A stretch of 62,587 bases of DNA from Pseudomonadota bacterium. GTDB lineage: Bacteria; Desulfobacterota; Binatia; Binatales; Binataceae. Every line of letters starts with the position of its first letter. Position 1 is the stretch's first letter. Positions 15,746 to 22,533 of the stretch are shown here, one piece after another. The position numbers and the translations under genes were made by a program. The stretch covers positions 1-62,587 of the forward strand of contig JAJPKA010000007.1 of the NCBI GenBank assembly GCA_021323945.1, read 5' to 3'. Below the pieces are notes generated by a model that saw nothing but the letters and a program-made list of their open reading frames with translations, did no database searches and had not been told where the DNA came from.

Positions 15746-15779
15746 TTGACAGATACCAAATCTATTTAGTAATAATTAT
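15746..15779 (+). promoter_or_regulatory. Candidate promoter/PerR-type operator before the Fur-family gene
   Basis: TTGACA (15746-15751) is followed by an AT-rich stretch with TAGTAATAATTATC, including the 8-bp palindrome ATAATTAT at 15772-15779. This gives a -35-like hexamer and several weak -10 options 15-18 bases away. PerR and Fur boxes are AT-rich palindromes, and autoregulation is usual for the family. The match to a defined Per box is only partial. Confidence 0.4.
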
Positions 15780-15866
15780 CAGGCGGTGCTCGTTATCGGC
15801 TGAGCGTTAATGCCATCTGCCGGCACGAGTCGCCGCTCAAGCGGCCTGTTTTCCAGAAAAGGAGTG

Positions 15867-16451
15867 ATGCGAGGACTGCGCTTACTGGATCCTCAGTGGC
15901 GGGCCAATTATTCGGCACAGCGGTTGAAGGAGTTCGTTCAGCGCTGCCGCGAGCGGCACCTATCAGTTACTCCTCAGCGGCTGGCCATCATCCGCGCTTT
16001 GGTGACCGCCGAAGATCATCCCAGCGCCGAGGAAATCTGCGCGGTGGTGCGGCGAACCCATCCACACGTGTCGCTGGCCACAGTGCACCGTATCCTCGAA
16101 CAATTTTGCCAGGTTGGGGAGGCGCGCAAAGTCACCGCGCTCCATGGCAGTGCTCGGTACGACGGACATGTTGAACCGCATCATCACGTATTTTGCGTGC
16201 GGTGCCGGCGGGTGCGGGACGTCGAGATGCCCGAGTTGAATGGGCTGATCAAAGACAAGGAGCATCTGGGCGAGTTCGAGCTGCTGGCCTGCTCGCTTGA
16301 GATCGAGGGTATCTGCCGGCGGTGCCGAGCGATGGAGCAGGGACTTGTCCCAGCTTCGTCGCGGTCAACACGAGCGCCGGTGGCGCGCAGACGACCGCGT
16401 CGCGCGAGTGCCCAAAAGCTCGGCGTTGCGCATCGTGGCGCCGAACAGTAG
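15867..16451 (+). CDS. Fur-family regulator, PerR-like
   Basis: 194 residues from the ATG at 15867, preceded by AAAAGGAG only two bases away. An ATG at 15810 would add 19 residues without a ribosome site. Winged-helix domain (about 15-85) with VTPQRLAIIRAL and HPSAEEI, and the ATVHRILEQF recognition region. Metal domain with RYDGHVEPHHHVFCVRCR: two CxxC pairs (C110/C113, C150/C153) for structural zinc, plus the His/Asp sensing site. The C-terminal 35 residues (Arg/Ala-rich) are an extension. The next gene is rubrerythrin, the classic PerR target, so I infer peroxide sensing. Confidence 0.9.
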   Translation: MRGLRLLDPQWRANYSAQRLKEFVQRCRERHLSVTPQRLAIIRALVTAEDHPSAEEICAVVRRTHPHVSLATVHRILEQFCQVGEARKVTALHGSARYDGHVEPHHHVFCVRCRRVRDVEMPELNGLIKDKEHLGEFELLACSLEIEGICRRCRAMEQGLVPASSRSTRAPVARRRPRRASAQKLGVAHRGAEQ

Positions 16452-16525
16452 GAGACAGACGCAACCAGCGGGACCCGGCTGGTTTGCTTGGCAGACTATA
16501 AAAATCGAAAGAAAGGATGAGGAAG

Positions 16526-16942
16526 ATGAAGGACTTAAAAGGCACCAAGACGCATCAAAATCTCAAGGACGCATTCGCCGGAGAGAGCCAGGCGAATCGC
16601 CGTTATCTCTATTTCGCCAAAATGGCGGATGTCGAAGGCTATCCGGAGGTTGCGGGCCTGTTTCGGGATACTGCCGAGGGTGAAACCGGCCATGCGCATG
16701 GTCACCTCGATTATCTCAAGTCGGTCGGCGATCCAGTGACCGATCAGCCGATTGGTGAGACCTTGCTCAATCTGAAGTCCGCCGTCCATGGCGAGACCTA
16801 CGAGTACACTGACATGTATCCCGGCATGGCCAAAACCGCGCGCGAGGAGGGTTTTCCCGAAATCGCGGATTGGTTCGAGACCTTAGCCAAAGCGGAAAAA
16901 TCCCACGCAGGAAAGTTCGCAAAAGCGGCTGAGACGATCTAA
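16526..16942 (+). CDS. Rubrerythrin without rubredoxin domain
   Basis: 138 residues from the ATG at 16526, with AAAGGA eight bases before it. An ATG at 16517 overlaps that site and is less likely. A ferritin-like di-iron four-helix protein: [41 protein letters not shown] and [12 protein letters not shown] supply the Glu/His ligands. The usual C-terminal rubredoxin domain is absent, so electrons must come from a separate donor. That donor is perhaps the Fe-S protein encoded next. It likely reduces hydrogen peroxide in the cytoplasm. A strong hairpin separates it from the next gene. Confidence 0.93.
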
Positions 16943-16961
16943 CTGGCTCGTTCGGCCAATG

Positions 16962-16983
16962 GCGCGGCGGTCAACCGCCGCGC
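16962..16983 (+). terminator. Strong intercistronic hairpin after rubrerythrin
   Basis: GCGCGGCGG and CCGCCGCGC form a perfect 9-bp stem around the tetraloop TCAA, 20 bp after the rubrerythrin stop. There is no U-tract. It could act as a 3'-end stabiliser or partial terminator and so raise rubrerythrin over the downstream genes. Confidence 0.55.
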
Positions 16984-17026
16984 GGCCGCAATGACCTTCC
17001 TCTGAGCTCCCATCGCCGGGCTCGTT

Positions 17027-18382
17027 ATGGCGCGTATCGAATCCAAGCCCACTGACGCATTATCCTACAACCCGAATGAGCCGCGGTATTGGGACCGCGC
17101 CAAGCTCAATGTTGAATTGAATCGGGTCTTCGACATCTGTCACGGATGTCGTCTGTGCTTCAATCTGTGTCCCTCGTTTCCCGCACTGTTCGAGGCGATC
17201 GACCACCTGGGCACCGAAGACGTGCGCGACCTCAGCGACGAGCAGAAGCAGCGCGTCATTGACTTGTGCTACGAGTGTAAGTTGTGTGAAGTGCGCTGCC
17301 CTTACACGCCGCGCGATGGCCACGAGTTTCAGTTGGATTTCCCGCGCCTGATTATGCGCGCCCGGGCGGTGAATGGACGCGAGCGGGGTATTCCGCTGCG
17401 TGACCGAATTTTGGGTGACCCTGATCGCGTTGGCAAATTGGGAACTGCGATCCCGCGACTGGCCAATTTGGCTTGCCGCGGTAGTTTGCAGCGCCTAATC
17501 ATGGAGAAGTTGCTGGGGATCCATCGGCGCAAGATTATGCCCGATTTTACCCGCGAACGGTTCACTAGCTGGATCGAGCGGAATGGGCTGCCGCCAGCAC
17601 CCGCAGAGCCGGCGATGAAAGTCGCAATCTTTCACACCTGCTTCGTCAATTATTACAACCCCGCTCCGGGCATAGCGTTGGTTAGGGTGCTGCACAAGAA
17701 CGGGTGTCAAATCGCCAGCCCCCCGCAAAATTGTTGCGGAATGCCAGCTATCGATGCCGGCGACATAGCCTTCGCTCAGCAGGAAGCGCGCCAGAATATT
17801 GCGAGTTTGCTACCCGTGGTGCGCAGCGGTTACCGAATAGCGGCAATTAACCCAACCTGCTCGATGACCCTGCGGCGTGAATATCCAAATCTGGTCGGAA
17901 CTCCTGAAGCTCAGGAGATTGCCAATGCGGCCGCGGATCCGCACGAACTGCTCGATGAGCTGCGGCGCAAAGGCAAATTCAATCGGGCCTTTCGCTCCAG
18001 TCCGGGTAAAATCGCCTATCATGTCCCGTGCCATCTCAAGGCCCAGAATATCGGGCTGCGGTCGCGCCAGCTGTTGCGCCAGATACCGGGTACCGAAGTG
18101 ATCACTGTCGACGCGTGTACCGCACATGACGGCACTTGGGCAATGAAGAGAGAGAACTTTGAGCTGTCAATGAAGTATGGCGAGCGGGCGTTCGTGCCTA
18201 TGCGGGAAGCCCATGCGGCAGTAATGGCCACCGACTGTCCGCTGGCCGCTATCCAGATCGAGCAGGGGACGGGGGTGCGGCCCCTCAATCCGGTGGAGAT
18301 TCTCGCTCAGGCCTACGAACCTGACGGTTTTGCGAACCCGGTGGATTCGGCACCCGCAGCCCAAATATCAGACAAGAGCTGA
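17027..18382 (+). CDS. Fe-S oxidoreductase (GlpC/HdrD-like) of the rubrerythrin-DUF3501 cassette
   Basis: 451 residues. Two ferredoxin-type [4Fe-4S] motifs occur near the N-terminus (CHGCRLCFNLCP and CYECKLCEVRCP). Two cysteine-rich CCG-type domains follow: the first has FHTCFVNYYN and QNCCGMPA. The second has HVPCHLKAQ and then DACTAHDGTWAM instead of the canonical C-C-G-M-A-G, so its second motif is altered. Related to subunit C of anaerobic glycerol-3-phosphate dehydrogenase and heterodisulfide reductase. Its place between rubrerythrin and DUF3501 suggests electron transfer to rubrerythrin rather than glycerol metabolism. That is inference from context. Confidence 0.88.
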   Translation: MARIESKPTDALSYNPNEPRYWDRAKLNVELNRVFDICHGCRLCFNLCPSFPALFEAIDHLGTEDVRDLSDEQKQRVIDLCYECKLCEVRCPYTPRDGHEFQLDFPRLIMRARAVNGRERGIPLRDRILGDPDRVGKLGTAIPRLANLACRGSLQRLIMEKLLGIHRRKIMPDFTRERFTSWIERNGLPPAPAEPAMKVAIFHTCFVNYYNPAPGIALVRVLHKNGCQIASPPQNCCGMPAIDAGDIAFAQQEARQNIASLLPVVRSGYRIAAINPTCSMTLRREYPNLVGTPEAQEIANAAADPHELLDELRRKGKFNRAFRSSPGKIAYHVPCHLKAQNIGLRSRQLLRQIPGTEVITVDACTAHDGTWAMKRENFELSMKYGERAFVPMREAHAAVMATDCPLAAIQIEQGTGVRPLNPVEILAQAYEPDGFANPVDSAPAAQISDKS

Positions 18383-18385
18383 ACC

Positions 18386-18973
18386 GTGATACAGCCGGTT
18401 ACCTTGAAGGAAATCCTTCCTTTCGAGCAATACGAGATTCTCCGACCCCGGCTCCGCCCACTGTTCATCGCAGAGAAGGACCGAAGGCGCCTGCATGTGG
18501 GCGAGCATCTCACTTTTTTATTCGAGAACGGCCAAACCGTGTGGTACCAGATCGAGGAGATGTTGCGAGCAGAGCGAATCAGCGACGAGGCTGCTGTTCG
18601 CCATGAGATAGACACTTACAACGAGCTGCTGCCGAACCCCGGTGAATTGGCGGCCACCTTGCTGATCGAATTTGCTGACGTCCAGCAACGCGATGTGGCC
18701 CTGCGTGAACTGCTCGGTCTCGAGTCCCATGTGTGGATAAGACTGGGAGATTGGCGGGAGCAAGGTCGGTTCGATTTGCGTCAAATGACCACCGACCGGA
18801 TTAGTTCCGTCCAATTCGTGCGCTTTCGCCTCGGGGGAATCGACGCCGCACAGTTCATCAAGCTCGCCGATGAACACAAAGTGCAGATCGAGGCTGATCA
18901 TCCTAAGCTGCAGGCTTCGGCATATATCGAGCCATCCTTGGCACGTGTGCTTGCGGAGGATCTGGCACCATGA
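18386..18973 (+). CDS. DUF3501 family protein
   Basis: 195 residues from a GTG three bases after the preceding stop. Matches DUF3501 in size and in features such as the opening (V/M)IQPVTLKEILPFEQYE, RLHVGEHLTFLFEN, VWYQIEEMLRAERI, NELLPNPGELAATLLIE, and VQFVRFRL near the end. DUF3501 genes are repeatedly found beside rubrerythrin and this type of Fe-S oxidoreductase, but no biochemical role is established. No cysteine motif or membrane segment is seen. Probably a partner or regulator of the redox pair. Confidence 0.85.
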   Translation: MIQPVTLKEILPFEQYEILRPRLRPLFIAEKDRRRLHVGEHLTFLFENGQTVWYQIEEMLRAERISDEAAVRHEIDTYNELLPNPGELAATLLIEFADVQQRDVALRELLGLESHVWIRLGDWREQGRFDLRQMTTDRISSVQFVRFRLGGIDAAQFIKLADEHKVQIEADHPKLQASAYIEPSLARVLAEDLAP

Positions 18974-19198: not shown

Positions 19199-20521
19199 AT
19201 GCCGGCCCGTCGGTTCACTGTTTTGATTGCCACTGCCGCGATCTTCCTGCTAACCGTGAGTGATGTTGCGTGGGCGACTATGCCGCCGCCCAAGCCCGGA
19301 CCGTTGGCAGAACCGCAGACGACACATCAGGTTGGTTTTCCCGACAGGCTTTATAAATTCGTGATACCGCCCGACAATCCGGAATCGCCGGCCAAGGTGG
19401 CCTTGGGTAAGGCCCTCTTTTTCGATCCGCGTCTGTCAGTGGACAACACGGTGGCCTGCGCCAATTGCCACGATCCCGACAAAGGCTTCACTGACCAGCT
19501 GCGTACAGCCATGGGCGTGCATGCCCAGTTCGGCCAGCGTAACGCGCCGACCGTCCTCAACGCCATGTTCAACATCGAACAGTTTTGGGATGGTCGCAGA
19601 GCCACGCTGGAAGATCAGGCTCGGGACCCCATTCTGAATCCAATCGAAATGGGTATGCCCGACCAGCAAACCGTGGTTAAGAAACTGAATTCGATCCCCG
19701 AATATCAGCGCGAATTTAACGCCGTTTTCGGCCAGGCGCCCAATTACGACAACCTGGTCAAGGCGATTGCCGCTTACGAGCGCACCCAGATTGCTTTTGA
19801 TTCACCATTCGATCGGTTCATGGCCGGAGACGACCAGGCGCTGACGGCACAGCAAAAGCGCGGATGGGCACTGTTTAACGGACAGGGACGCTGTATGTCA
19901 TGCCACGGATGGAATCCTACGCGTCCGCTCTTCACTGATGATCGTTTTCACAACATTGGAGTCTCGGCGCATAACGCCAAGTTCGTGCCGCACGCGCGCC
20001 AGGCGTTGGCGCTCCTGAGCCAGGCTGGAGGGCCGCAAGAGATCGACCGCCTGGCAATTGCCACCGACATGAGTGAAGTCGGGCGCTTCCTGGTAACGAA
20101 ACAGCCCCACGACATCGGTGCCTTCCGCACGATGGGTCTCCGCAACCTTTATGTCACCGAGCCTTATTTTCACGACGGCTCCCAGGCAACCATTTGGGAC
20201 ACGCTGGACCATTACAACAAAGGCGGGGTCCAAAATCCGTTCCTCGATGGGGGGATCGTGCCGTTGGGCCTAAGTAGTCAGCAGGAAGATGATCTGGCAG
20301 CCTTCCTTTTATCTCTTACGAGTCAGCGCTACATGACCCAGGCGAAGCAGGAATATGCGCGTCAATTCAGGATCTCTCGGACCACGCGTCCGCAACGCGA
20401 TACCGCTGCAGCAATGGGTCTGAAAGGACGCGAAGGCCCGGGCTTCGAGGGCCCTTTCGGTGATATTGGTCCGAGCCAGCAGGAGATGGCGCTCAACCCC
20501 GCGCTGCTCGGCGGTTATTAG
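19199..20521 (+). CDS. Di-haem cytochrome c peroxidase (BCCP/MauG family)
   Basis: 440 residues. A Sec signal peptide ends near DVAWA (about residue 26). Two haem c sites: CANCH (C87-C90-H91) and CMSCH (C232-C235-H236). The conserved NAMFNIEQFWDGR and NPIEMG segments of bacterial di-haem peroxidases lie between them. A C-terminal extension of ~50 residues follows SLTSQRYM. It reduces periplasmic H2O2 using electrons from a small cytochrome. The monohaem cytochrome encoded two genes downstream is a natural donor candidate. MauG-like protein oxidation is a less likely alternative. Confidence 0.92.
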   Translation: MPARRFTVLIATAAIFLLTVSDVAWATMPPPKPGPLAEPQTTHQVGFPDRLYKFVIPPDNPESPAKVALGKALFFDPRLSVDNTVACANCHDPDKGFTDQLRTAMGVHAQFGQRNAPTVLNAMFNIEQFWDGRRATLEDQARDPILNPIEMGMPDQQTVVKKLNSIPEYQREFNAVFGQAPNYDNLVKAIAAYERTQIAFDSPFDRFMAGDDQALTAQQKRGWALFNGQGRCMSCHGWNPTRPLFTDDRFHNIGVSAHNAKFVPHARQALALLSQAGGPQEIDRLAIATDMSEVGRFLVTKQPHDIGAFRTMGLRNLYVTEPYFHDGSQATIWDTLDHYNKGGVQNPFLDGGIVPLGLSSQQEDDLAAFLLSLTSQRYMTQAKQEYARQFRISRTTRPQRDTAAAMGLKGREGPGFEGPFGDIGPSQQEMALNPALLGGY

Positions 20522-20546
20522 TGATTATTGTGAGGAAAGGACCCAC

Positions 20547-21695
20547 ATGGCAGCGCGCCACAAGAGCATCGAAACCAAGTACTACGAAGAACGTGACAAG
20601 GTGCTGAAAGCCTTGCGCAATTGTGACCGGCGCACCTTTCTTCGGCTTTCAGCAGCGGCGGCCGGAGCGGTACTAGCCAAAGGCCTGACGCCTCCGCATT
20701 CCTTTCAACTGGTCGAGGTCGTGCAAGCTGCAGTGGAAAAAGGAGGGAGCGAAACCGGGGCCGGCGGCAACCGGCCATTTCGCTTCGCTTACATTTCAGA
20801 TACGCACCTTTATGAGAGGACCCTGAATCAGCGCTTCGTGCGTGCCATTGTAAAGGCGGTCGACGACGTGAATGCGCTCGACCCGCAGCCCGATTTCGTC
20901 TTGTTCGGCGGTGACCTAGCTCAGCTGGGCGAGCCCAGTCAACTGGAGTTGGGCAAACAAATCCTTAGCGGCCTCAAAGCACCAGTCAAGATGATGGTCG
21001 GCGAGCACGATTGGTTCCTCGACCTGGGCAACAAGTGGCAGGAAATGTTTGGCCCGCCCACCTATTCCTTCGACTGGAAGGGTGTGCACGTCGTGGTCCT
21101 GATGAGCGTCAATGAAAAGGACTTCTGGACTGCGCGAAAGATGTCGGCCGAGGAGCGGATGCAGACGGTCGCAGGCCTCGACAATCCAATCCAGTCGCGT
21201 TTCGAGGTCGGCGAGAGGCAGCGACAATGGCTCAAGGATGATCTGTCGAAGGTTTCGCTCACCACGCCGATTCTAATCTTCTCGCATTCGCCTCTATACA
21301 AGTATTACCGTCCCTGGAACTTTTGGACAGAGGACGCTGATGAGGTTCAAGCAATCCTCAGACCCTACAGCCGAGTCGTCGTGATCCATGGTCATACTCA
21401 CCAGATGCTTTTCAATCAGATCGGCAATATCAGCTTCTATGGCATGCTTTCGACTGCCTGGCCCTGGCCGTATGCCCCCGAGGGACTGCCTGCGTTGACG
21501 GTGCAGATGAACCGTGCCGATCCCTTTGATCAGTTTGACGGATGTGGAGACGGGCAAGCGACCGTTCGTACCGATGGCCTGGTTGATACTATTTACAACC
21601 TTTGGGATCGGAATCCGGTCACTGTCAAAGCCGACTATCTGGTTTCCGGGGGGAAGCGCGACAAGCCGCCGGCCCCGCAGTTCGCGAGTTACTGA
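20547..21695 (+). CDS. Tat-exported metallophosphoesterase
   Basis: 382 residues from the ATG at 20547, with GAAAGGA before it. The start lies 25 bp after the peroxidase stop. A twin-arginine signal (DRRTFLRLSAAAAG, R28/R29) sits unusually deep after ~25 charged residues. Calcineurin-like motifs: ISDTHLYE (D85, H87), GGDLAQLG (D123), VGEHDW (where the usual N of G-N-H-D/E is E153), FSHSPLY, and IHGHTHQ. The fold binds two metals and hydrolyses phosphoesters. Tat export implies cofactor loading before secretion. The phosphoester substrate is unknown. Confidence 0.88.
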   Translation: MAARHKSIETKYYEERDKVLKALRNCDRRTFLRLSAAAAGAVLAKGLTPPHSFQLVEVVQAAVEKGGSETGAGGNRPFRFAYISDTHLYERTLNQRFVRAIVKAVDDVNALDPQPDFVLFGGDLAQLGEPSQLELGKQILSGLKAPVKMMVGEHDWFLDLGNKWQEMFGPPTYSFDWKGVHVVVLMSVNEKDFWTARKMSAEERMQTVAGLDNPIQSRFEVGERQRQWLKDDLSKVSLTTPILIFSHSPLYKYYRPWNFWTEDADEVQAILRPYSRVVVIHGHTHQMLFNQIGNISFYGMLSTAWPWPYAPEGLPALTVQMNRADPFDQFDGCGDGQATVRTDGLVDTIYNLWDRNPVTVKADYLVSGGKRDKPPAPQFASY

Positions 21696-21747
21696 ACGCC
21701 AAGGATGGCGCTTCTGATTAACGGTTCCGGAAAAGGTAGCAGAGCGA

Positions 21748-22533
21748 GTGGAATCGGGAAAGAAAATCATTGCCGCAGCGTTGATTGGGGCAGTCGCCGG
21801 CGCGACGGTAGTTTATTTGAAATTCGCTGGGCAAAGTCCCTTGGCTTACGCCACGCCCTTACTCAAGCATCGGCTGCCGCCCGCCAGGAATGGAGGAACG
21901 GTCATCCAGCTCTGTGATGGCGCAACTTCGACCGAAGTGCGAGGTCTGAAACCCGGTCAGCGGATGAGTCGTGAGCAGGCTCTGGAAGTTTCGCGTGAGC
22001 TGATGGCTCAATGGCAGCGCAAGCATCCCGACCAACACTGGATCATGGCAGATTCAAGGTCGCCTGCCATTGGGACTCAGACGCAGGCCGATAGTGCCGC
22101 CGGTAGCGCTACCCCCAGCAATGCGGTCGACGGCGAACCCACTGCCAGCCCCAGTACAGCTGCTGCGCAAAGTCAGCAGGGCGACACTTACGCTAGTTTT
22201 CACAAACGCGATTTCATGATCTTCCAGGCGGAGACCGAGAATTTTGTCGAACAAGGAAGGCGAATCTTCCATTCCGCCAAGCTCTTGGGCGGCACCATCG
22301 GCGTGAGCTGCGATATGTGTCATCCCGATGCTGCCAACACCCATCCCGAGACCTATCCTAAGTATCAGGAGCAGCTTCAGCGCGTTGCCCTGCTGCGCGA
22401 CATGATTAACTGGTGCATCGAGAACCCAGTAAAAGGAAAGACTCTCGACGCGAATGATCCAAGGCTGCGTGCACTCGAGGCTTATATTCTGGCGCAGCGC
22501 AAGGGTGTACCCCTGGCTTATGGCAAACATTAA
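21748..22533 (+). CDS. Membrane-anchored monohaem cytochrome c
   Basis: 261 residues from a GTG with AAAGG upstream. An N-terminal hydrophobic helix (about 7-23) is probably an uncleaved anchor. It is followed by a globular segment, a Ser/Ala/Pro/Thr-rich linker (about 103-146) and a C-terminal class-I-like haem domain with CDMCH (C188-C191-H192). Methionines that could be the distal ligand occur downstream (DMINWCIENP). The C-terminal LEAYILAQRKGVPL is typical of small cytochromes of this kind. A flexible tether would let it shuttle electrons between the membrane and the cytochrome c peroxidase encoded upstream. Confidence 0.85.
   Translation: MESGKKIIAAALIGAVAGATVVYLKFAGQSPLAYATPLLKHRLPPARNGGTVIQLCDGATSTEVRGLKPGQRMSREQALEVSRELMAQWQRKHPDQHWIMADSRSPAIGTQTQADSAAGSATPSNAVDGEPTASPSTAAAQSQQGDTYASFHKRDFMIFQAETENFVEQGRRIFHSAKLLGGTIGVSCDMCHPDAANTHPETYPKYQEQLQRVALLRDMINWCIENPVKGKTLDANDPRLRALEAYILAQRKGVPLAYGKH

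Follow-up and report, generated by a model that had tools for sequence, protein, structure and literature searches.

Within the window, a 62,587-nucleotide stretch of DNA, we describe three adjacent genes as a conserved and probably horizontally transferred operon. We propose, tentatively, that it encodes an exported redox module arranged round a metallophosphoesterase (MPE) with an unusual GEHD motif, and that this MPE acts as a redox-coupled metalloenzyme rather than as a plain phosphatase. Its companions are a di-haem CCP_MauG-family protein (CCP) and a monohaem SoxA/TsdA-type cytochrome (CYT); coordinates are collected in Table 1.

Table 1. Features of the trio and of the genes upstream of it (positions in the window)
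Feature	Position	Strand	Details
Fur/PerR-family regulator, possible regulator of the region	15810..16451	+	Pfam FUR 8.5e-24
Rubrerythrin	16517-16942	+	
GlpC-like Fe-S protein	17027-18382	+	
DUF3501	18386-18973	+	
CCP gene, di-haem CCP_MauG-family	19199..20521	+	440 aa; ORF + Pfam
CCP haem motif CANCH	19457-19471	+	
CCP haem motif CMSCH	19892-19906	+	
CCP Tyr339 codon	20213-20215	+	
MPE gene, Tat-exported calcineurin-like metallophosphoesterase	20547..21695	+	382 aa; ORF + Pfam
MPE RR codons	20628-20633	+	
MPE GEHD	21000-21011	+	
MPE GHTH	21390-21401	+	
CYT gene, monohaem SoxA/TsdA-type cytochrome	21748..22533	+	261 aa, GTG start; ORF + Pfam
CYT Cys56 codon	21913-21915	+	
CYT CDMCH	22309-22323	+	
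CYT Cys223 codon	22414-22416	+	

The trio is conserved as a unit

The ORF coordinates confirm what the first-pass annotation of this DNA had stated, that the three genes lie on one strand, separated by 25 and 52 bp (the MPE length is counted from its own ATG; the mechanical ORF opens upstream, at 20460). Pfam assigns the products to CCP_MauG (E = 9.3e-61), Metallophos (1.1e-15) and SoxA-TsdA_cyt-c (1.9e-11), with two CxxCH motifs in CCP and one in CYT. The same annotation had all three proteins exported. For MPE this is borne out by a twin-arginine motif, DRRTFLR, of which R28 is invariant in 35 aligned rows; for CCP and CYT, hydrophobic N-termini suggest both export and membrane tethering, and the structure model of CYT has a helix at residues 3-27. 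By eye, some CYT relatives look lipoprotein-like.

The annotation had also proposed that the trio forms one exported module, a claim to be abandoned were the genes not conserved together elsewhere. They are kept as a unit: in the best 80 of 137 confirmed loci, all found through MPE, the CCP gene precedes MPE wherever there is room (79/79; 77 by script, plus L076 and L088, in which CCP is overlapped by a back-extended MPE frame) and the CYT gene follows it in 76/76. A further set of loci (L003-L031) has the same gene order, and overlaps in origin with the 80, so it was kept out of the counts. According to submitters' labels the trio occurs in Binatota, Myxococcota, Acidobacteriota, Planctomycetota, Kryptoniota and proteobacteria, and its bearers include the cultured genera Corallococcus, Myxococcus and Methylocapsa. 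The flanks are not shared: the most frequent outside gene cluster is found in 8 of 71 loci, a count that leaves out 13 closely related myxobacterial loci (including L053, titled Comamonas). The grouping of the three genes is far beyond chance. Pairwise distances within the CCP, MPE and CYT families correlate at 0.89-0.91 (71 rows, after six with fragmentary or over-long frames were dropped), values that shared descent inflates and that none of 2000 permutations reached.

Within the class of the source organism, MPE is present in 40 of 148 genomes. CYT accompanies it in 39, the remaining one stopping at a contig edge, and CCP in 35; the five without CCP comprise one contig edge and four loci of a cupredoxin type. 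A close CCP homologue without MPE was found in two genomes, L137 and L138, the first with just 1.9 kb of downstream sequence, containing a run of N. In the MPE tree (12 related rows dropped) phyla are intermixed, with Methylocapsa rows among Myxococcota, which is no proof of transfer; one copy of the trio sits on a Methylocystis plasmid amid Tn3 and IS genes. The operon has probably been transferred horizontally.

A metal site with Glu in place of Asn

The structure model of MPE, which is of moderate confidence (mean pLDDT 68), has the fold of GpdQ (Z = 20.5), Rv0805 (Z = 18) and the purple acid phosphatases (Z of about 15-17); in the structure alignments identity is 19-21% to GpdQ and Rv0805, and lower to most purple acid phosphatases. 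The D-x-H, GD, H and GHxH motifs of GpdQ-like/class III phosphodiesterases are all present. The Asn metal ligand of that class (GNHD/E) is not: MPE carries GEHD where its relatives carry GNHD, and the Glu is found in 85/85 rows, as is each of the other candidate ligands (D85, H87, D123, H247, H283 and H285). Glu153 aligns with the Asn of the GpdQ GNHD motif, which we take to bind metal. The predicted metal site of MPE departs from those of its phosphoesterase relatives at this one ligand position. Hydrolysis by MPE is still conceivable, because all the other ligand positions match those of working phosphoesterases. The earlier view that a phosphoesterase has no evident place in the pathway overlooks this GEHD site. 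SoxB is absent from the listed structure matches of MPE, which proves nothing. Cys333 (in FDGCGDG) was considered as a SoxY-like carrier and rejected, being Cys in just 59/85 rows.

GEHD relatives keep redox-type neighbours

A further observation concerns GEHD proteins outside the trio, of which 18 loci were read; these include close kin, such as L035 and L149, both from S. meliloti. On the plasmid side, 18 of 107 matching records were opened for their neighbours (many of the others are from Pseudosulfitobacter, 45, or Sinorhizobium, 35). A cupredoxin-type gene adjoins the GEHD gene in 16 of the 18 GEHD loci, and 8 of the 16 also contain the SoxA-type cytochrome; at L034 and L126 no redox neighbour was found. 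Rhodanese and Cytochrom_C_asm genes lie close by in L126, and the cupredoxin frame of L035 is shortened. Three more distant plasmid relatives that carry GNHD have no redox-type neighbour.

As a control we read 30 of 52 Metallophos matches from six genomes, namely those given as loci. Five of the 30 are GEHD; all five belong to trios, are flanked left and right by CxxCH genes, and come from genomes picked for holding the trio; a CxxCH frame lies within about 1.5 kb of one of the other 25. The loci read did not include the GEHD gene of G132; L183 has no recognisable motif, L178 has GDHD, and a second GEHD string in L180, in an overlapping frame on the other strand, was taken as spurious. On these counts, MPE looks to be the core of the system and its redox partner exchangeable, the exchange being read from gene adjacency only. 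The description of MPE as 'redox-linked' in the first-pass annotation is supported by these loci, in which a redox-type neighbour persists even where the di-haem gene is missing.

These same loci bear on plain periplasmic peroxide defence, in which the cytochrome would feed the peroxidase and MPE would be an ordinary co-regulated phosphodiesterase. We consider that reading distinctly improbable: neither the constant gene order nor an Asn-to-Glu change in 85/85 rows is expected of a passenger, and the GEHD relatives retain redox-type neighbours in loci that lack a di-haem gene. On the other hand, the distal pocket residues of CCP for H2O2 are conserved, a rubrerythrin gene lies nearby here, and a Fur/PerR-family gene stands directly upstream of the trio in 7/79 loci (best 80 of 137).

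Regulators and flanking genes give the peroxide link of the trio limited support. The Fur/PerR-family gene in the window is about 2.7 kb upstream, with rubrerythrin, GlpC-like and DUF3501 genes in between, and the best NCBIfam model for its product is a PerR, below cut-off. Neither of the regulator types sought was seen in 54/79 trio loci (best 80 of 137). Anti-sigma factors with a haem motif, which adjoin the operon in 14 loci, count in favour of the redox-module reading. The intervening run of three genes was rejected as part of the system: none has a homologue at E <= 1e-5 in 84 loci (with flanks reaching 8 kb at most and in some cases far less), and DUF3501 was found in one of six genomes or records tested. 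A search for PerR boxes gave one weak match upstream of perR (15767-15781, three mismatches, 0.44 expected by chance) and none ahead of the trio; a promoter scan returned one site against 2.2 expected, nothing useful.

The di-haem protein looks MauG-like

CCP has the two c-haem motifs and the CCP_MauG domain of a bacterial cytochrome c peroxidase (bCCP), and to that extent 'di-haem peroxidase', as it was first called, stands. The name fails at the haem ligand: Tyr339, present in 81/81 CCP rows, aligns with a Met of bCCP 2c1u, presumably the haem ligand in that enzyme, and with a Tyr of 6e1c, which we take to be MbnH. We reject a canonical bCCP on this Tyr, which stands in place of a Met (or His) as sixth ligand of the electron-transfer haem. 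Y339, Q140, P144 and E150 are invariant in 24 rows, and together supply, by alignment, the axial Tyr and distal Gln, Pro and Glu of the MauG/MbnH/BthA group; the spacing of the distal three is that of BthA Q267/P271/E277, as numbered in PMC6405878. CCP scores 236.8 bits against TIGR04039 (MbnH; cut-off 362.85) and 209.5 bits against TIGR03791 (MauG; cut-off 443.85). It looks MauG/MbnH/BthA-like rather than like a canonical peroxidase.

A partner of this type brings in maturation, whereby the MauG-type enzyme would use H2O2 to oxidise side chains or metals of MPE and so activate it, with the cytochrome supplying or removing electrons. MbnH modifies a partner protein, and MPE has many conserved Trp residues. 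MauG, too, modifies a partner, and BthA is reported always to lie near phosA, a putative purple acid phosphatase gene whose product is suggested as an oxidation target (PMC6405878); in Flavobacterium, phoX and a MauG-like gene belong to one operon (PMC8812569). Modification of MPE Trp by the di-haem partner is weakened because the MPEs of L033 and L035 keep the same Trp residues with a cupredoxin-like gene beside them and no di-haem gene. In L125, which has a BthA relative (29% identical to CCP over the aligned part), the adjoining phosphatase gene belongs to PF04185 and not to PF00149, whereas a purple acid phosphatase, as the BthA paper calls PhosA, would share the MPE superfamily; the L125 gene may thus not be phosA. 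We judge maturation rather unlikely.

The cytochrome is of the SoxA/TsdA type

All six PDB sequences that match CYT at E <= 0.1 are SoxA or TsdA, which also lead its fold matches, weak as these are (E from 0.025 upwards); against the SoxA model CYT scores 42.5 bits (cut-off 110). CYT has the CxxCH and ligand Cys of the family, with Cys223 (78/80 rows, two gaps) at the SoxA/TsdA ligand position, and is probably His/Cys-ligated and of low potential. It had been cast as a natural electron donor: an exported monohaem protein is indeed what its N-terminus and haem motif suggest, but the SoxA/TsdA type is not that of an ordinary donor. Cys56 (76/80 rows) lies in an N-terminal stretch of the trio cytochromes; the cytochromes in L116, L118 and L033 are short and lack this stretch. 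TsdA has an invariant substrate-binding Arg, Arg119, four residues ahead of the Cys (PMC4423706). By alignment with the Arg described there, the thiosulfate-binding position of TsdA/SoxA is occupied in CYT by Met219 (77/80 rows; one Ala, two gaps), so that the Arg is lacking.

Such a cytochrome raises the possibility of a Sox-like series: MPE would hydrolyse a bound sulfur or phosphorus intermediate, the SoxA-type cytochrome would oxidise it, and the di-haem protein or cupredoxin would accept the electrons. SoxB acts as a hydrolase in the Sox pathway. A SoxYZ-like fusion follows MPE and cytochrome in L116-L119 (Pfam SoxY 1.1e-17 and SoxZ 9.3e-15 in L116, similar in L118; L117 and the partial L119 assigned by homology), soxYZ adjoin MPE and cytochrome on the opposite strand in two Sinorhizobium meliloti records, Cys223 is correctly placed, and Cys56 could be a built-in thiol. 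Against this, SoxY was detected in 1/19 trio genomes tested and not in the source genome, SoxB exceeded its cut-off in 0/21 genomes (weaker matches in 5, and likewise in 10/14 control genomes), Met219 replaces the substrate-binding Arg, and the L116 SoxYZ-like protein is nearest to a quinoprotein-dehydrogenase-associated type, below cut-off. On the SoxY (1/19) and SoxB (0/21) counts and Met219 we reject membership of the trio in Sox itself; a Sox-like series remains, in our estimate, a somewhat unlikely account.

A proposed redox-coupled metalloenzyme

Our best reading is that MPE is a redox-coupled dinuclear metal enzyme, here drawing on H2O2 via its MauG-type partner. Oxidative signals would switch the operon on where a Fur/PerR gene or an ECF sigma/anti-sigma pair adjoins it, to judge from the neighbours. 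MPE would take up its metals and fold in the cytoplasm before leaving by the Tat route, its putative dinuclear site formed by D85, H87, D123, Glu153 for the usual Asn, H247, H283 and H285. Electrons would move between this site, or its released product, and the dedicated SoxA-type cytochrome. The first gene would provide the exchangeable far end of the chain: here a MauG-type di-haem enzyme using H2O2, at other loci a cupredoxin, sometimes with a cbb3-type oxidase close by.

A broader hypothesis, which we advance as a doubtful one, is that GEHD proteins of the MPE fold are widespread redox enzymes: the Asn-to-Glu change would have made a hydrolase site redox-active, exchanging electrons with an exported partner (MauG-type di-haem protein, cupredoxin or His/Cys cytochrome) under the control of PerR or of a c-haem/Rieske anti-sigma factor. 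Calcineurin-like phosphoesterases are usually annotated as phosphatases. A one-residue signature that across several phyla tracks an exported electron-transfer neighbour makes for a simple test of redox function on this fold, and offers a way to reannotate 'metallophosphoesterase' genes. The trio may also bear on published, unexplained cases in which a MauG-type enzyme is paired with a phosphatase, as in BthA-PhosA and with PhoX in Flavobacterium.

Comparison with known systems

GpdQ, Rv0805 and the purple acid phosphatases share with MPE the fold and six of seven ligand positions; MPE differs in Glu153 and in its Tat export. MbnH and MauG resemble CCP in the two CxxCH motifs, the conserved distal Gln/Pro/Glu and the Tyr at the axial position, whereas CCP falls below both curated cut-offs and no mau gene is present among the nine neighbours of the trio that were scanned. 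CYT has the haem motif and ligand cysteine position of SoxA/TsdA, and differs in its single haem domain, in a Met where the catalytic Arg would stand and in an extra N-terminal Cys-Asp stretch. The Sox system of thiosulfate oxidation likewise combines a SoxA-type cytochrome with a protein of the metallophosphoesterase superfamily, to which we take SoxB to belong, and one branch of the MPE loci has a SoxYZ-like carrier; the finding of SoxY in 1/19 trio genomes tested, and of SoxB over cut-off in 0/21 genomes, sets the two apart. BthA-PhosA of Burkholderia offers a published parallel: as in the trio, an exported Tyr/His-type di-haem CCP_MauG protein, the Tyr-ligated BthA, is encoded near an exported putative phosphatase, PhosA, which is called a purple acid phosphatase. 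A SoxA-type cytochrome is not mentioned with the pair in the accessible part of that paper (PMC6405878).

A conserved three-gene unit of patchy distribution

When we re-read the open reading frames of the window, the genes for a CCP_MauG protein (CCP), a metallophosphoesterase (MPE) and a monohaem cytochrome (CYT) lay on one strand, 25 and 52 bp apart, at the coordinates of the first-pass annotation. That annotation had proposed that the trio is one periplasmic module, and co-occurrence of the three families as neighbours does extend across genomes: in the best 80 of 137 loci from a scan with MPE, CCP is 5′ of MPE in 79 of the 79 loci with room and CYT is 3′ in 76 of 76 (L076 and L088 were inspected by hand; the set includes fragmentary genes at contig edges, e.g., CCP of L059 and CYT of L071). 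The flanks differ between loci, the most frequent flanking cluster occurring in just 8 of 71. Pairwise distances of the three proteins are correlated (0.906, 0.893 and 0.897; 71 rows of aligned homologues), as shared descent alone would also cause. Phyla are intermixed in the MPE tree, to the extent that submitters' taxon labels permit this reading: the copies from Methylocapsa and from a Methylocystis plasmid group with Myxococcota (11 rows; support 99/95), the branch of the five Methylocapsa/Methylocystis rows themselves being weaker (97/74), and the window's MPE sits in an 18-row clade that includes Candidatus Binataceae bins, which points to Binatota as its probable source. One trio is carried by a plasmid of Methylocystis sp. 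MJC1 among Tn3 and IS transposase genes; its cytochrome is annotated as 'hypothetical protein'.

Throughout the class Binatia (thresholds: MPE 1e-20, CYT 1e-10, CCP 1e-60), MPE was found in 40 of 148 genomes, accompanied by CYT in 39 and by CCP in 35. The distribution is uneven, with MPE present in 21 of the 41 genomes from the window's family and, at 1e-20, absent from a genus mate of the window's genome (G051). Counting against a strict unit are CCP matches without MPE in 20 genomes, mostly distant; the close ones number four, two of which stop at contig edges (G025, G123), and in the other two (G142, G014) there is no MPE next to CCP. Broken CYT pieces remain in G046 (L140) and G024 (L141) with neither CCP nor MPE, as if these genomes have lost the unit; the latter piece adjoins a PerR-like gene.

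Coordinates of features in the window and in loci (L) of other genomes or plasmids
Feature	Location	Strand	Description
CCP	window 19199-20521	+	CCP_MauG protein
MPE	window 20547-21695	+	Metallophos protein, twin-arginine signal
CYT	window 21748-22533	+	SoxA/TsdA-type monohaem cytochrome
Gene run 5′ of trio	window 15810-18973		PerR-family gene, rubrerythrin, GlpC-like Fe-S protein, DUF3501
PerR-box-like site	window 15767-15781		weak
Plasmid trio	L032:6685-9888		Methylocystis sp. MJC1
SoxYZ-like fusion	L116:9320-10225		twin-arginine-like start
Sigma/Rieske genes	L146:2074-3320		overlapping
Anti-sigma	L060:1503-2354		zf-HC2-type, CxxCH near C-terminus, beside ECF sigma gene
Anti-sigma	L069:5041-5895		as L060
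Anti-sigma	L074:5209-6135		as L060
Anti-sigma	L085:5076-5975		as L060
Anti-sigma	L105:5225-6106		as L060
Anti-sigma	L107:5224-6015		as L060
Anti-sigma	L112:4608-5516		as L060
Anti-sigma	L061, L075, L116-L118, L123, L124		as L060

Predicted properties of the three proteins

Tyr339 of CCP occurs in all 81 rows; in the alignment it pairs with a Tyr of 6e1c (MbnH) and with the Met of the bCCP 2c1u. Furthermore, CCP residues Q140, P144, E150 and W130 (of 81 rows, 67 have W and 11 have L at this last position) are spaced as Q267, P271, E277 and S257 of BthA. From this tyrosine and this spacing we predict a MauG/MbnH/BthA-type enzyme, although CCP scores below the cut-offs of the curated MbnH and MauG models. 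BthA Q267, P271 and S257 have been equated with MauG Gln103, Pro107 and Trp93 (PMC6405878).

A structure search with a model of MPE (mean pLDDT 68) returned the fold of GpdQ, Rv0805 and purple acid phosphatases (GpdQ: Z 20.5, 3.2 Å, 237 residues). The seven positions predicted to ligate metal do not vary across 85 rows, and in every row Glu (Glu153) replaces the Asn of the GNHD motif, giving GEHD. The PDB sequences matched by CYT are SoxA, most strongly over its first haem domain, and TsdA; both also top a fold search, weakly (E 0.025 upwards). CYT keeps their ligand Cys, presumably for haem ligation (78 of 80 rows), whereas four residues ahead of it, where TsdA and SoxA have an invariant Arg (PMC4423706), Met stands in 77 of 80.

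Partner exchange around the metallophosphoesterase

More distant MPE relatives were taken from plasmids (18 of 107 matching records) and four genomes of the class. Those with GEHD outside the trio (~29-51% identity over the matched part) have a cupredoxin-type neighbour at 16 of 18 loci (exceptions: L034, L126). At eight of these (L116-L119, L033, L035, L149, L157), MPE and CYT are kept and CCP's place is taken by a cupredoxin-like protein that also has a domain of the carboxypeptidase-regulatory type (its frame is shortened at L035); cbb3-type oxidase genes occur at L116 and L033. On the actinobacterial plasmids of L146, L147 and L151, the start of MPE is overlapped or directly adjoined by a plastocyanin-like gene; at L150, L152, L153 and L158 such a gene lies 3′ of MPE, and at L148 a COX2-like cupredoxin is 3′. 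GNHD relatives (L154, L155, L156) neighbour ABC transport, phosphate uptake and efflux genes. Among 30 control Metallophos loci from six genomes (five already known to hold the trio; the sixth's GEHD gene is outside the 30), five are GEHD, and each of these belongs to a trio and is flanked on either side by a CxxCH gene; a CxxCH frame lies within about 1.5 kb of 1 of the other 25, and cupredoxin seeds matched none of the 30. By adjacency, then, the partner is exchanged, and the core of the system looks like MPE, not the peroxidase.

We tentatively favor MPE as a redox-coupled dinuclear metal enzyme, from which electrons would pass through CYT to a MauG-type enzyme using H2O2 or, in other lineages, to a cupredoxin in its place. 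Maturation of MPE by the MauG-type enzyme, after the proposal made for BthA-PhosA, is rather improbable, with an exchangeable partner arguing against it. At L116-L119 a SoxYZ-like fusion follows MPE and CYT, and for this branch a Sox-like series (hydrolysis, then oxidation) is attractive; it is nevertheless unlikely, given that CYT is without the catalytic Arg and that SoxY occurs in 1 of 19 trio genomes tested. The L116 fusion also matches a desulfoferrodoxin domain above the Pfam cut-off (48.3 vs 22.2 bits).

Regulators beside the operon

Domain and profile searches place a Fur/PerR-family regulator, rubrerythrin, a GlpC-like Fe-S protein and DUF3501 5′ of the window's trio, and an MlrC-family gene 3′. 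The upstream genes form a single run that looks like a cytoplasmic peroxide-reduction operon; for the trio itself, plain peroxide defence is more improbable than any reading discussed so far. The gene directly 5′ of the trio belongs to the Fur/PerR family at 7 of the 79 loci, and nine loci have an ECF sigma gene and a zf-HC2 anti-sigma homologue in this position; neither is there at 54 loci with room, and nine loci are without room.

The anti-sigma homologues carry CxxCH near the C-terminus at 14 of 14 loci with c-cytochromes in the operon (11 trio, three cupredoxin-MPE-CYT) and at 0 of 3 cupredoxin-only loci. This association is a lead, because the search started from a protein that already had the haem motif and kinship is ignored in the counts. 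We regard these proteins as candidate c-haem-bearing anti-sigma factors, of which there was none, by title or abstract opening, among the open-licence papers listed. At L146 there is an overlap between a sigma factor gene and the gene of a Rieske-domain protein, which has a cytoplasmic-looking N-terminal part and a hydrophobic stretch and may be an Fe-S anti-sigma of that sigma factor. Redox-cofactor anti-sigma factors beside the GEHD family would fit induction by a redox signal.

Comparison with known systems

Among the papers listed from the open-licence literature, with subscription journals mostly outside its scope, none presented the trio in title or abstract opening, and the one paper containing both 'metallophosphoesterase' and 'cupredoxin' concerns plant GPI proteins. 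The closest published idea is the BthA-PhosA pair. At L125, a BthA relative, whose best PDB match is 6nx0 (BthA), adjoins a phosphoesterase gene. That gene belongs to PF04185, whereas phosA, the partner of BthA, is termed a purple acid phosphatase in PMC6405878.
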